Assembly (NCBI RefSeq): GCF_002848345.1
Contig: NZ_CP025429.1
Span: 3,410,001-3,474,000 of the forward strand
Source of the DNA: Chromobacterium sp. ATCC 53434
GTDB taxonomy: Bacteria > Pseudomonadota > Gammaproteobacteria > Burkholderiales > Chromobacteriaceae
Reading direction: 5' to 3'
DNA: 64,000 bases
Part shown: positions 15,502 through 64,000 of the stretch, piece after piece
Numbering within the stretch: position 1 is the stretch's first letter
How the letters are laid out: the number at the start of each line of letters is the position of its first letter
Translations under genes and position numbers: made by a program
The notes under the pieces: model-generated
What the model saw: the letters and a program-made list of their open reading frames with translations, nothing else
Told to the model about the DNA's origin: nothing
Database searches by the model: none

Positions 15502-15771
15502 TTACTTGCGCAGGCCCAGACGGGTGATCAGCGCGCGGTAGCTATCAGCGTCGGTACGCTTCAGGTAGTCCAGCAGACGGCGACGACGGCTAACCAGCTT
15601 CAGCAGACCACGACGGCTGTGGTGGTCCTTGGTGTTGGCCTTGAAGTGCGGGGTCAGGTCGTTGATGCGTGCGGTCAGCAGGGCAACCTGCACTTCGGAC
15701 GAACCGGTGTCGCCTTCAGCGCGTTGGTAGCCTTTAACGATTTCTGCTTTTTGAGCGGCGGTCATTGCCAT
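15502..15771 (-). CDS. rpsO: 30S ribosomal protein S15
   Basis: This 89-residue protein has full family length. The conserved parts [33 protein letters not shown] and [11 protein letters not shown] are present; they bind the three-way junction of 16S rRNA and the central domain. I kept the first ATG because a GGAG lies 8 bases before it; an internal ATG two codons later is less likely. It sits between truB and pnp, the typical order. Confidence 0.97.
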
Positions 15772-15863
15772 TTGGATTACTCCGTTTCAATAGGGGTTTG
15801 AAAACCCGACAAGTGCGGCGAGCCGGAAAACCCAACCCATTCCACACTTCGGTAAGCGGCGAA

Positions 15864-60495: not shown

Positions 60496-60662
60496 ATCGG
60501 ACTCCAATGGATGAGAAGACAATGTCGATCGAAACGCCGACTAAACCCAGGAACGCCGCGGTCGTCCGCTTGTGAGCGGCGGGCCGTCTTTCGCCAATTC
60601 CAGATTCATGAAATCATCGCCGGCATGCCATCATATGTCATTCAATAATGGAGCTTCTTGCA

Positions 60663-61160
60663 ATGAACGCCTTGCGCCACGGCCTGATCGACACCTATTT
60701 CGGCCCGGTCGCCGCCTGCCTGGACGCCGACGGCGCGCTGGTGCGGCTGCTGTTCCGCCCCGACCCCGTGCAATTGACCGGCGCGCGCGACGACGCGGCG
60801 CTGTCCGAAGTGGCGCGCCAGCTGGCCGAATACCAGGCCGGCGATCGCCGCGAATTCGACTTGGCGCTCGCCCCGCGCGGCACGCCGTTCCAGCAGCAGG
60901 TGTGGGCGACCTTGCGCCGCATCCCCTACGGCTCCACCGTCAGCTACGGCGAGTTGGCGCGGGTGCTGGGCACGCCGGACGGCGCGCGCGCCGTCGGCCG
61001 CGCCAACGCCACCAACCCGATCGCGCTGATCGTGCCCTGCCACCGCGTGCTCGGCGCCGACGGCAGCCTGACCGGCTACGCCGGCGGCCTGCCGTTGAAA
61101 GCGGCGCTGCTGCGCTTCGAGCTGGAACGCAGCGCGCCGCCGGGGCTGTTCGGCGGCTAA
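60663..61160 (+). CDS. ogt: methylated-DNA-[protein]-cysteine S-methyltransferase
   Basis: This 165-residue suicide repair protein takes the alkyl group from O6-alkylguanine. GTPFQQQVWATLRRIPYGSTVSYGELAR is the DNA-binding part, RAVGRANATNPIALIVPCHRV holds the Arg finger and acceptor Cys, and GYAGGLPLKAALLRFE ends the family motif. The ATG at 60663 has GGAG upstream; an ATG five codons earlier has none. Confidence 0.94.
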   Translation: MNALRHGLIDTYFGPVAACLDADGALVRLLFRPDPVQLTGARDDAALSEVARQLAEYQAGDRREFDLALAPRGTPFQQQVWATLRRIPYGSTVSYGELARVLGTPDGARAVGRANATNPIALIVPCHRVLGADGSLTGYAGGLPLKAALLRFELERSAPPGLFGG

Positions 61161-61217: not shown

Positions 61218-62228
61218 ATGACAATGACAATCAAACACGCGGCGATCGCGCCGCTGCTGCTCGCCCTGGCCCTGCCCGCCTGGGCGCGGGTATACACCTT
61301 CAAGGACTGGGCGGTCGCCTGCGACAATATCCGCCGTTGCCAGGCCAGCGGCAGCCAGGCCGAAGACGGCGACAATCCGGTCGCGCTGCTGCTGACGCGC
61401 ACCGCCGGCCCCGGCTCGGCCATGGCCGGCCGCTTGAGCGTGGCCGATCCGGACGACGGCAAGATAGGCGCGCTGACGCTGCGCGTCGGCAAGCTGAAAT
61501 GGACCGGCATCACGCCGGACCAGGCCTTTGCTCCGGCGCGCGCCGCGCTGCTGCTGGCCGCGATGCGCGACGCCGACGCGATGACGCTGGACGACGGCCG
61601 CCGCCGCTGGACCCTGTCGCTGGCCGGACTGAAGGCCGCGCTGTTGAAAATCGACGAAATCCAGGGCCGGATCGGCACCCGCGGCGCGCTGGCGAGGCCG
61701 GGCGACAAGCCCGAGTCCGCCGTGCCGCCGGCGCCGACCGCGCCGCTGGTGGCGCCGGCCGCAACGCCGGCGGCGCGCCCCGGCGACAAGGCGCTGCTGC
61801 CGGCGCTGCTGAAACGGCTGAAGGCGGCCGACGCGACATGCTGGAACGAACAGCCGGACGCCGAACAGCCCGACGCCGAACTGTATCGGCTCGGCGCCAG
61901 CCAGTTGCTGGTGCTTCGCGAGTGCGGCCGCGCCGCCTACCAGAGCAATTACAAGGCCTGGATCGTCGACGACAAGCCGCCGTTCCGAAGCCGCGCGGCA
62001 ATGCCGCGCGACGAGGACGGCAAGGACGCGCCGCTGATCGGCGCCGCCTTCGAGCGCGGCGTGCTGTCCAGCTACGCCAAGGGCCGCGGCATAGGCGATT
62101 GCGGCGGCGGCGCCAGCTGGGCCTGGACCGGCGGGGACTTCCAGCTGATGTCGGCCGAGGAGGCGCCGCAATGCCGCGGCATTCCCGGCGGCGTGCCGCT
62201 GCGCACCTGGGTCAGCCGGCAGCATTGA
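61218..62228 (+). CDS. DUF1176 domain-containing exported protein
   Basis: This 336-residue protein has a signal peptide (IAPLLLALALPAWA) and begins its mature part with RVYTFKDWAVACDNIRRCQA, the DUF1176 opening. A Pro/Ala-rich linker (about residues 160-190) precedes a second domain with paired cysteines (ADATCWNE ... RECGRA; GDCGGGASWAWTG; PQCRGIPGG). It is periplasmic; the function is unknown. The start may instead be the ATG two codons later. Confidence 0.88.
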   Translation: MTMTIKHAAIAPLLLALALPAWARVYTFKDWAVACDNIRRCQASGSQAEDGDNPVALLLTRTAGPGSAMAGRLSVADPDDGKIGALTLRVGKLKWTGITPDQAFAPARAALLLAAMRDADAMTLDDGRRRWTLSLAGLKAALLKIDEIQGRIGTRGALARPGDKPESAVPPAPTAPLVAPAATPAARPGDKALLPALLKRLKAADATCWNEQPDAEQPDAELYRLGASQLLVLRECGRAAYQSNYKAWIVDDKPPFRSRAAMPRDEDGKDAPLIGAAFERGVLSSYAKGRGIGDCGGGASWAWTGGDFQLMSAEEAPQCRGIPGGVPLRTWVSRQH

Positions 62229-62304
62229 CCAGCTGGCGGCCGGCGCGCCGGCTGCCTTATACTGCGCAATCTTCCACCGTTTTCAGAAAAGAAAGGAGGT
62301 AAAT

Positions 62305-62391
62305 ATGGTTTTCCCTGCGCGCCCAATCATGCTGGCTCGCTTGTTCAGCGCATTTGAAAGCTCTTGCCTGCCATCCATCGCGCTGCGATAA
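62305..62391 (+). CDS. 28-codon leader peptide upstream of the ABC-F gene
   Basis: A strong AAGGAGGT ribosome site (62293-62300) lies 4 bases before this ATG, better than that of almost any gene in the window. The product is MVFPARPIMLARLFSAFESS followed by CLPSIALR. It ends 116 bp before the ABC-F start. Codons 11-14 can pair with the ABC-F ribosome site. It has no membrane or domain features and is probably a regulatory uORF whose translation matters more than its product. Confidence 0.6.
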   Translation: MVFPARPIMLARLFSAFESSCLPSIALR

Positions 62392-62498
62392 GCGGGTTCG
62401 AGCAAAGCCACACTCCCCATCCAGAGTCCTTTCTCGACTCATCCCCGTTGTCGCCAGCGCGCCTGTTGACAGGGACCGTCGCGTCCCGAGCAAGCGAG
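62336..62498 (+). promoter_or_regulatory. candidate translational attenuator sequestering the ABC-F ribosome site
   Basis: Bases 62336-62346, inside the leader ORF, are complementary to 62488-62498 over 11 bp with one G-U pair. The second strand covers most of the GCGAGAG ribosome site of the ABC-F gene. A competing partner, GAGCAA at 62400-62405, can pair with 62341-62346. A ribosome halted early in the leader would free the ABC-F start. The helices are seen; the mechanism is inference. Confidence 0.5.
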
Positions 62499-62507
62499 AG
62501 CACACGC

Positions 62508-64000
62508 ATGACAACCCTGATTTCCGCCCTTTCCGTACGACTGGACGCCGGCCACGGCCCGCTGTTCAACGATCTGTCCTTCACCGTCAAACTCGGCGAC
62601 CGCATCGGCCTGATCGGCCACAACGGCTGCGGCAAGAGCACGCTGCTGAGACTGCTGTCCGGCCAGCTGGAGCCGAGCGGCGGCGAGGTGCAGTACGCGT
62701 CCGCCTGCCGGCTGCAACATGTCGAACAACACCTGCCCGAACAACTGTACGCGCTGAGCGCGCGCCAGGCGCTCAGGCAGGCGGTCGAGGCCGATCAATA
62801 CTGGCGCGTCGACAGCCTGCTGGCCGAGCTGGAGCTGGACGCCCAGGCCGACACGCAGGTCGCCGACCTCAGCGGCGGCCAGCACACCCGGCTGCTGCTG
62901 GGCCGCGCGGTCTTGCGCCAGCCCAATCTGCTGCTGCTGGACGAGCCCAGCAACCACCTGGACCTGCCGTCGCTGCTGTGGCTGGAGGATTTCCTCTGCC
63001 GCTGGCCAGGCGGCTTCATCCTGGTGTCGCACGACGCCCGACTGCTGGACCGCGCCACCCGCCACAGCTGGGTGATGCGCGACGGGCGGCTGTACCGTTT
63101 CGAGCTGCCCTGCGGCCAGGCGCTGGCCGAACTGGCCGACGCCGACGCGGCCGCCCATGCCCGCCGCGCCGGCGAACAGAAGGAGATAGACCGCCTCGCC
63201 GCCAGCAGCAAGCGGCTGGCTATCTGGGGCCGCGAACACGACAACGAGAAACTGGTGCGCAAGGCCAAGTCGATGGAAAAGCGCGTCGACAGGCTGAAGG
63301 ACGAGCAGACCTTCGTCAGCCGCGGCAGTCCGTGGCGGCTCGCGCTCAAGGGGCAGGCGCTGTCGGCCGACAGCCTGCTGGCCTTCGAATCGCTGCCGGT
63401 GTCGGCGGCGTCCGGCCTGCCGCCGCTGTTCAGCGCCGCCGGCCTGTGGCTGCGCCCCGGCGACCGGGTCGCGCTGCTGGGCGCCAACGGCGCCGGCAAA
63501 TCGTCGCTGCTGCGCCAGTGCTGGCGCGATGTCCAGCACGGCGAACCGCAAGCCGGCTGGCGCTGGCATCCGGCGGCCAGCATCGCCTATTACGACCAGT
63601 CGCTGCGGCAGCTGGCCGACGAGGCGACGCTGCTCGACGCCCTCCATCCGCTGGCGCCGCTGCCGGAAACGGCGCGCCGGCACGCGCTGATCGCCGCCGG
63701 CTTCGCCTACTCGCGCCACGATCAACGGGTGGACACGCTCAGCGGCGGCGAGCGGGCGCGTCTGCTGTTTCTGGCGCTGTCGCTGGCCAGCCACCACCTG
63801 CTGTGGCTGGACGAACCGACCAATCACCTGGACCTGGACGGCAAGCGCGAGCTGGCTGAGGCGCTGGCCGCCTTCCCCGGCGGCGCGCTGCTGGTCTCCC
63901 ACGACCGGGAGCTGATCGAGGCCGGCTGCAACCGTTTCTGGGTGCTCGGCGACGGCCGGCTGCGGGAATGGCCGGACGCCGACAGCGCCTACGCCGCGCT
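62508..64000 (+). CDS. ABC-F family ATPase, 3' end missing
   Basis: At least 497 residues are present and the frame is open at the window end. Two ATP-binding cassettes lie in one chain without membrane segments: Walker A GHNGCGKST and GANGAGKSS, signatures LSGGQHTR and LSGGERAR, Walker B LLLDEPSNHLD and LLWLDEPTNHLD. A basic helical linker lies between (about residues 205-265: EQKEIDRLAASSKRLAIWGREHDNEKLVRKAKSMEKRVDRL), as in ribosome-acting ABC-F proteins. These proteins either tune translation or protect the ribosome from antibiotics. The leader ORF favours an inducible resistance-type role, but this is inference. Confidence 0.9.
   Translation, partial: MTTLISALSVRLDAGHGPLFNDLSFTVKLGDRIGLIGHNGCGKSTLLRLLSGQLEPSGGEVQYASACRLQHVEQHLPEQLYALSARQALRQAVEADQYWRVDSLLAELELDAQADTQVADLSGGQHTRLLLGRAVLRQPNLLLLDEPSNHLDLPSLLWLEDFLCRWPGGFILVSHDARLLDRATRHSWVMRDGRLYRFELPCGQALAELADADAAAHARRAGEQKEIDRLAASSKRLAIWGREHDNEKLVRKAKSMEKRVDRLKDEQTFVSRGSPWRLALKGQALSADSLLAFESLPVSAASGLPPLFSAAGLWLRPGDRVALLGANGAGKSSLLRQCWRDVQHGEPQAGWRWHPAASIAYYDQSLRQLADEATLLDALHPLAPLPETARRHALIAAGFAYSRHDQRVDTLSGGERARLLFLALSLASHHLLWLDEPTNHLDLDGKRELAEALAAFPGGALLVSHDRELIEAGCNRFWVLGDGRLREWPDADSAYAA

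Follow-up and report, generated by a model that had tools for sequence, protein, structure and literature searches.

In translational attenuators of the ermC type, a ribosome stalled on the leader frees the downstream ribosome site by helix swapping. Leaders are also described for inducible ABC-F genes of Gram-positive bacteria: attenuation of vmlR and cplR is reported to be in part translational (PMC10201436, PMC9226507), and transcriptional attenuation is reported as well for vmlR, vgaA, msrD, and cplR (PMC9226507, PMC10201436). For toiL/topAI of E. coli, the proposal has been made that stalling anywhere in the upstream open reading frame (uORF) unmasks the downstream ribosome site, and repression of translation is reported to lead to Rho termination (PMC12121999). 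Among the ABC-F proteins, the PAF1 group has been presented as a predicted resistance factor and called worthy of investigation (Murina 2019, PMC6723617); the main text of that article contains no word beginning with leader, attenuat, or uORF. Here we describe a window of 64,000 nucleotides (positions 3,410,001 to 3,474,000 of contig NZ_CP025429.1, in the 5.14-Mb genome of Chromobacterium sp. ATCC 53434), close to whose end a leader open reading frame (ORF) and a folding RNA precede an ABC-F ATPase gene. Sequence comparison makes a ribosome-sensing translational attenuator of this gene the best explanation, and one that we regard as likely.

The ABC-F gene begins with the ATG at 62508 on the + strand and is truncated by the window edge at 64000; its product has 570 amino acids in the complete genome. 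As an earlier note on this DNA had claimed, a leader ORF of 28 codons plus stop lies upstream (62305 to 62391, + strand, ATG to TAA, MVFPARPIMLARLFSAFESSCLPSIALR), preceded by its own ribosome site (62293 to 62302, + strand, AAGGAGGTAA) with the Shine-Dalgarno sequence AAGGAGGT, and 116 bases separate it from the ABC-F start. To follow the leader in relatives, the best 80 of at least 574 confirmed genome-contig stretches, 15 loci from a family search (including L001), and one Aeromonas record were combined into 96 loci, 91 of which are distinct because five contigs are present in two collections. The protein identity of these homologues to the ABC-F of the window ranges from about 51% to 100%. 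In all 96 loci, an ORF that appears to be translated, with its own ribosome site of the GGAGG or AGGAG type, is located 5' of the ABC-F gene; the frame is open over 24 to 30 codons, begins with ATG in 95 loci, and stops 100 to 155 bases short of the gene. Length changes of the leader are mostly multiples of three, and the position of the stop is held at an RNA element, D, described below. Including nine loci gathered later, leader ORF and folding RNA precede every ABC-F homologue fetched from the Beta- and Gammaproteobacteria, so that a relative keeping the gene without the leader ORF, which would have spoken against the earlier note, was not encountered among the fetched loci.

Comparison of 41 representatives, whose ABC-F gene tree has two main clades (beta-type and gamma-type), supports two mutually exclusive folds that join the leader ORF to the ribosome site of the gene. 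Element A (62360 to 62367, GCTCTTGC) covers leader codons 19 to 21 and can pair with element C (62494 to 62501, GCGAGAGC), the ABC-F ribosome site, or with element B (62396 to 62408, GTTCGAGCAAAGC), which lies just after the leader stop and contacts A through approximately 62396 to 62403. B can also pair with element G (62428 to 62440, CCTTTCTCGACTC), the pairing TCGAG:CTCGA reaching a probability (P) of 0.92 to 0.98 in the window ensemble. Element D (62379 to 62391), formed by the last leader codons and the stop, pairs with element D' (62448 to 62461, TTGTCGCCAGCGCG), a pairing found by RNAalifold, by the swap test, and in the window ensemble, where P reaches up to 1.0. Two hairpins complete the structure: F within the leader ORF (62317 to 62340; GCGCGCC at 62317 to 62323 with GGCTCGC at 62334 to 62340) and E directly 5' of the ABC-F ribosome site (62472 to 62487; GGGAC..GTCCC, P about 0.8). 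All these elements are on the + strand.

The pairings were evaluated by a swap test, in which the pairing energy of native arms was compared with that of arms from other lineages, with segments taken from alignment A1 and 14 lineage groups, labelled by the analyst, permuted 5000 times. For A:C, A:B, B:G, D:D', F, and E, none of the 5000 cross-lineage permutations was as good as the native arms, and the control pairing B:C was equalled in 3939. In 35 of the 41 representatives, the window not being among these, no leader segment complements the ribosome site better than A, and the A:C helix has changed on both sides between lineages: it reads GCUCUUGC:GCAAGAGC in several beta-type leaders, CUCAAG:CUUGAG in most gamma-type leaders, GGCGCUUACC:GGUAAGCGC in Chitinimonas, and CUCAGG:CCUGAG in Rahnella (L078). 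The comparison thereby supports A:C as the sequestering helix. For A:B, five of the eight pairs show double changes when counted by column, a number matched by one of 500 shuffles; in covariation score and in the counts of paired and of double-changed cells, no shuffle came up to the observed value, and 29 of 500 did so in pair types. An alternative partner of D', element X (62464 to 62471, + strand, TGTTGACA), was rejected as weak, since swaps were as good in 44, 154, or 335 of 5000 permutations across lineages, depending on the choice of cut, and in 461 (beta-type) and 415 (gamma-type) within clades.

These folds suggest how the leader could act. In the OFF fold, A within the leader ORF would pair with C and hide the ABC-F ribosome site, the A:C helix lying outside the long arm that D:D' and B:G form, together with hairpins F and E. 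In the alternative fold, A would pair with B just past the leader stop and leave C free; A:B encloses D in its loop and so conflicts with D:D'. Ribosomes that read the leader freely would clear A and finish at the stop within D, beside B, which would favour the OFF fold, and a ribosome slowed or stalled by a drug at or upstream of A would either cover A or leave it to be caught by B, so that C would open and the ABC-F gene would be translated. The step from stalling to expression, including induction by drugs, is what we infer from the arrangement of these elements. Because the leader peptide is weakly conserved, a broad sensor of stalled ribosomes appears likelier than a sensor of one drug, and because no intrinsic terminator was seen, translational attenuation is the best reading. 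The search, which covered intrinsic terminators only, found no terminator-like site on the coding strand at 61800 to 62700, the only such site being on the opposite strand; runs of at least five T between leader and gene occur in six of the 41 representatives, none of them, by reading of the listing, directly after a conserved hairpin, so the arrangement of an intrinsic-terminator attenuator, a hairpin followed by a T-run before the gene, was not found.

A crude footprint model, in which a ribosome masks part of the leader and the predicted opening of the ABC-F ribosome site is computed, gave a mean gain in opening over the 41 representatives of +0.059 with the ribosome on A, 0.023 on early codons, and 0.005 at the stop, an effect largely built into the model, since A:C is lost once A is masked. 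For the window, the predicted opening increases from 0.19 to values of 0.44 to 0.46 with the ribosome on codons 15 to 16 and is 0.17 at codons 19 to 28, probably because a helix between 62336 to 62346 and 62488 to 62498 then takes over.

Several observations weigh against the attenuator as described. The footprint effect is small, exceeding 0.05 in 20 of the 41 representatives, and in the window the opening at codons 5, 6, and 8 (0.49 to 0.50) is as great as that at codons 15 to 16. The equilibrium ensemble of the window slightly favours the helix just mentioned over A:C (P 0.55 vs 0.45), the four core A:B pairs have an equilibrium probability of 0 there, and by inspection B pairs more poorly with A in Aeromonas and in the clade of the window. 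Support is also weaker within clades, where swapped arms were as good for A:C in 437 (beta-type) and 5 (gamma-type) of 5000 permutations and for A:B in 1061 and 14; the corresponding values are 6 and 961 for B:G, 19 and 1 for D:D', 40 and 15 for F, and 683 and 8 for E. The controls other than B:C are not flat across lineages (A:G 173, D:C 143 of 5000), and within the beta-type and gamma-type clades they reach 2723 and 2534 for B:C, 714 and 1522 for A:G, and 54 and 4064 for D:C, the low beta-type value of D:C being a further point of this kind. Column counts for D:D' and B:G are not above those of shuffles (69 of 500 for paired cells), which we ascribe to pairs that are nearly invariant. RNAalifold alone, unprompted on the 41 representatives, recovers only D:D', since the positions of C and E vary by a few bases from lineage to lineage, and swap tests were used for this reason. 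Finally, Rho-dependent control may be involved.

The earlier note had named another helix as the switch, that of 62336 to 62346 (+ strand, CTCGCTTGTTC) in the leader with 62488 to 62498 (GAGCAAGCGAG) overlapping the ribosome site. The pairing exists as described, with 11 bp and one G-U, and exceeds chance: of 5000 dinucleotide shuffles covering leader and ribosome site, 35 yielded a helix as long or longer with at most one G-U. In the window, no other leader segment pairs better with the ribosome site than its arm does, and the helix competes with A:C there and in the closest kin. An overlapping segment is the best partner in L094, which brings the count to two of 41 representatives. The alignment shows mismatches in this helix for the sister species L090 and L091, and swapped arms were as good in 1272 of 5000 permutations across lineages and in 3850 and 839 within clades. 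As a general conserved device it is contradicted by these mismatches, swap tests, and partner rankings, and we consider it very unlikely to be the switch; it may act locally in the clade of the window. Nor does the competitor proposed at 62400 to 62405 stand out in the comparison: TTGTTC:GAGCAA (6 bp, with 62341 to 62346) is possible on paper, has an ensemble probability of 0.00, and was equalled in 423 of 5000 cross-lineage permutations. What does stand is the broader claim of a switchable RNA able to hide the ABC-F ribosome site, with A:C and A:B in place of the named helix, and the comparison extends it from Chromobacterium to much more distant bacteria; the leader ORF proposed for checking in relatives is conserved, and the covarying helices found there are these two. 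Still less credible is a riboswitch or thermosensor-like RNA with incidental leader translation, an idea that the strong structure of the conserved RNA would suit, since a ribosome site and an open frame are present in 96 of 96 loci, insertions and deletions come mostly in threes, the stop is held at D, and the RNA has no Rfam match.

Control could instead be transcriptional, with the folds exposing or hiding a Rho-loading or pausing site and leader translation deciding early termination, as for toiL/topAI. E. coli uses such a device, according to its description (PMC12121999), and the 100 to 155 untranslated bases between leader stop and gene would leave room for it; yet the ribosome site C itself covaries with A, which points to translation, and by reading of the listing no T-run follows the conserved hairpins, the sole terminator-like site being on the opposite strand (no search was aimed at Rho sites), so that we hold this alternative to be unlikely. 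The peptide offers another candidate. A weak motif, [ASV][RH]x[FLY][GSA], is found at 62335 to 62349 (+ strand; A11 R12 L13 F14 S15 in the window), and in the codon table of the 41 representatives, relative to A, position -7 is R or H in 34, position -5 is F, L, or Y in 38, and position -4 is G, S, or A in 40. The -5 codon begins 16 nucleotides 5' of A in the sequences worked by hand and 17 in L069, so a ribosome stalled at the [FLY][GSA] step by one drug class could touch A with its front edge, making the leader a drug-specific arrest peptide. In the N-terminal part of the leader, 51 of 139 single-change codons are synonymous, against 40.8 under the null (P 0.039), and 88 are non-synonymous, counted over 39 disjoint pairs that are not fully independent (some twice-present contigs are in two pairs, and a few pairs cross genera). 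This slight synonymous excess with many non-synonymous changes indicates that the frame is kept and the peptide only loosely; strong coding conservation was not found by this test. The remaining peptide is highly variable, and the motif is partly within the F hairpin, so that RNA pairing may hold it, just as D:D' pairing probably holds the C-terminal I(A/V)LR of the leader. An arrest peptide specific for one drug class is therefore doubtful, and the ribosome-sensing translational attenuator is the explanation that we retain.

A few leaders depart from the common form. In L094 (G024), the start is ATA and not ATG, while frame, ribosome site, and RNA elements are retained, a natural variant bearing on the role of leader initiation. 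The frame of L079 overruns the usual stop and reaches 30 codons. Xenorhabdus indica (L069) has one extra base after the FG step and lacks one right before D, and the same TAA is reached. In two Alcaligenes leaders (L048, L054), two bases are missing where A ends, so that the leader runs on for a few bases to another stop, which still adjoins B.

We sought to learn how leader and gene are distributed. Hosts include Chromobacterium, Burkholderia, Paraburkholderia, Janthinobacterium, Chitinimonas, Aeromonas, Alcaligenes, Klebsiella, Enterobacter, Serratia, Rahnella, Dickeya, Morganella, Xenorhabdus, Vibrio, and Endozoicomonas. A covariance model, R1, built from 40 representatives, which it matches by construction, matched all 81 loci from L009 to L089. 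Among 61 genomes of the family, R1 (E 0.01) marks 15, identical to the 15 with the ABC-F gene (E 1e-120), and among 399 genomes of the order it marks five, identical to the five with the gene (E 1e-110); within the genus, both are present in 12 of 19 genomes. Because the genome searches scored a limited share of each genome's first-look candidates (55, 25, 8, and 3), a genome without a match may still carry the leader or the gene. An even sample of the class, which bears on the leader alone and not on co-occurrence, gave a match in one of 369 genomes, the own genome. R1 also matched the four loci from the order sample, L112 having the same leader as L036, and the five loci fetched (three Pantoea, two Klebsiella) out of 39 protein-matching records of a plasmid collection. 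In the own genome, R1 found no second copy of the leader at E up to 10 and no convincing match around its other ABC hits (L002 to L008; L007 with 17.5 bits, E 0.027). Minus-strand matches in L108 and L109 (18.6 and 17.7 bits) were taken as self-complementarity. Rfam 15 has no family matching the leader region at gathering score, and weak hits at 62211 and 62461 fall below it. The gene tables of four of the five plasmid-collection records, which are incomplete, show nothing annotated over the leader, and the fifth record is without any features. On large Pantoea plasmids (L105 to L107), ABC-F gene and leader are carried on replicons of 557 to 742 kb; the Aeromonas caviae (L009, 4.9 Mb) and Klebsiella pneumoniae (L108, 5.4 Mb) records are filed as plasmids and are chromosome-like in size. 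The gene tree places Aeromonas within the beta-type clade and Alcaligenes within the gamma-type one, and in the alignment the leader of each agrees in type with its gene, suggesting that the two move as a unit.

The nearest protein among the matches listed for the ABC-F of the window is that of Chromobacterium vaccinii (96% identity). For the full protein, the top family is NCBIfam NF000355 (ribosomal protection-like ABC-F) with 295.2 bits, below the curated cut-off of 380. The part of the protein in the window is far under the curated cut-offs of the named resistance families Msr, Vga, Sal, Lsa, and OptrA, and the full protein is likewise far under those of the Sal, Msr, and Vga models. The ABC-F belongs to a Gram-negative group that is probably equal to the predicted resistance group PAF1, as judged by genera: those of the homologues agree with the PAF1 genera, Citrobacter being absent from the loci gathered. 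Its product is predicted, from sequence, to be a ribosome-protection factor and may confer resistance. The Klebsiella ABC-F copy with the leader has no near match among 20,395 E. coli records. In the literature searched, whose coverage leaves most subscription papers and bioRxiv preprints outside, the matches listed include no description of a leader of this ABC-F group, and only one paper joins PAF1 with ABCF and proteobacterial, no later PAF1 work being found there.

In the window, the same-strand ORF upstream stops at 62228, 76 bases 5' of the leader ATG. A possible -10 box, TATACT, lies at 62258 to 62263 (+ strand), 47 nucleotides 5' of that ATG, and a TANNNT box at -42 to -50 was counted by eye in 27 of the 41 representatives, so the position recurs; a consensus sigma-70 promoter pair was not found in the window. 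An ogt-type methylated-DNA cysteine methyltransferase gene is located upstream (60648 to 61160, + strand), and an Rfam S15 ribosomal leader match lies at 15715 to 15834 on the - strand (42.8 bits, gathering score 39.5).

Our findings raise the prospect of a previously undescribed unit of leader RNA and ABC-F gene, shared across classes of Gram-negative bacteria including Klebsiella pneumoniae, in which A would choose between the ribosome site and an anti-sequestor after the leader stop, and stalling at or before A would switch on a native ribosome-protection factor; for this full picture of a broad ribosome-stall sensor, we see the chances as evenly balanced. Should the gene prove to be PAF1, the presence of a conserved leader that senses stalling would argue independently for a response of the protein to ribosome-targeting drugs; such a leader would also serve as a ready-made reporter with which to identify the drugs concerned, and it could account for how readily the function escapes notice. 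The leader would also add an unregistered RNA family across Beta- and Gammaproteobacteria.

Compared with known systems, the locus resembles the inducible Gram-positive leaders of vmlR, vgaA, msrD, and cplR in placing a leader ORF and exclusive RNA folds before an ABC-F gene; unlike them, it shows no intrinsic terminator and is found in Beta- and Gammaproteobacteria, a distinction drawn from their descriptions and the lack of an Rfam match and not from direct sequence comparison. With toiL/topAI it shares a regulatory leader ORF, in that case in a gammaproteobacterium, but toiL/topAI controls a toxin-antitoxin operon and is linked to Rho, the likeness again being one of description. The erm-type attenuators have a different target gene, and the ABC-F leader would resemble them in mechanism.
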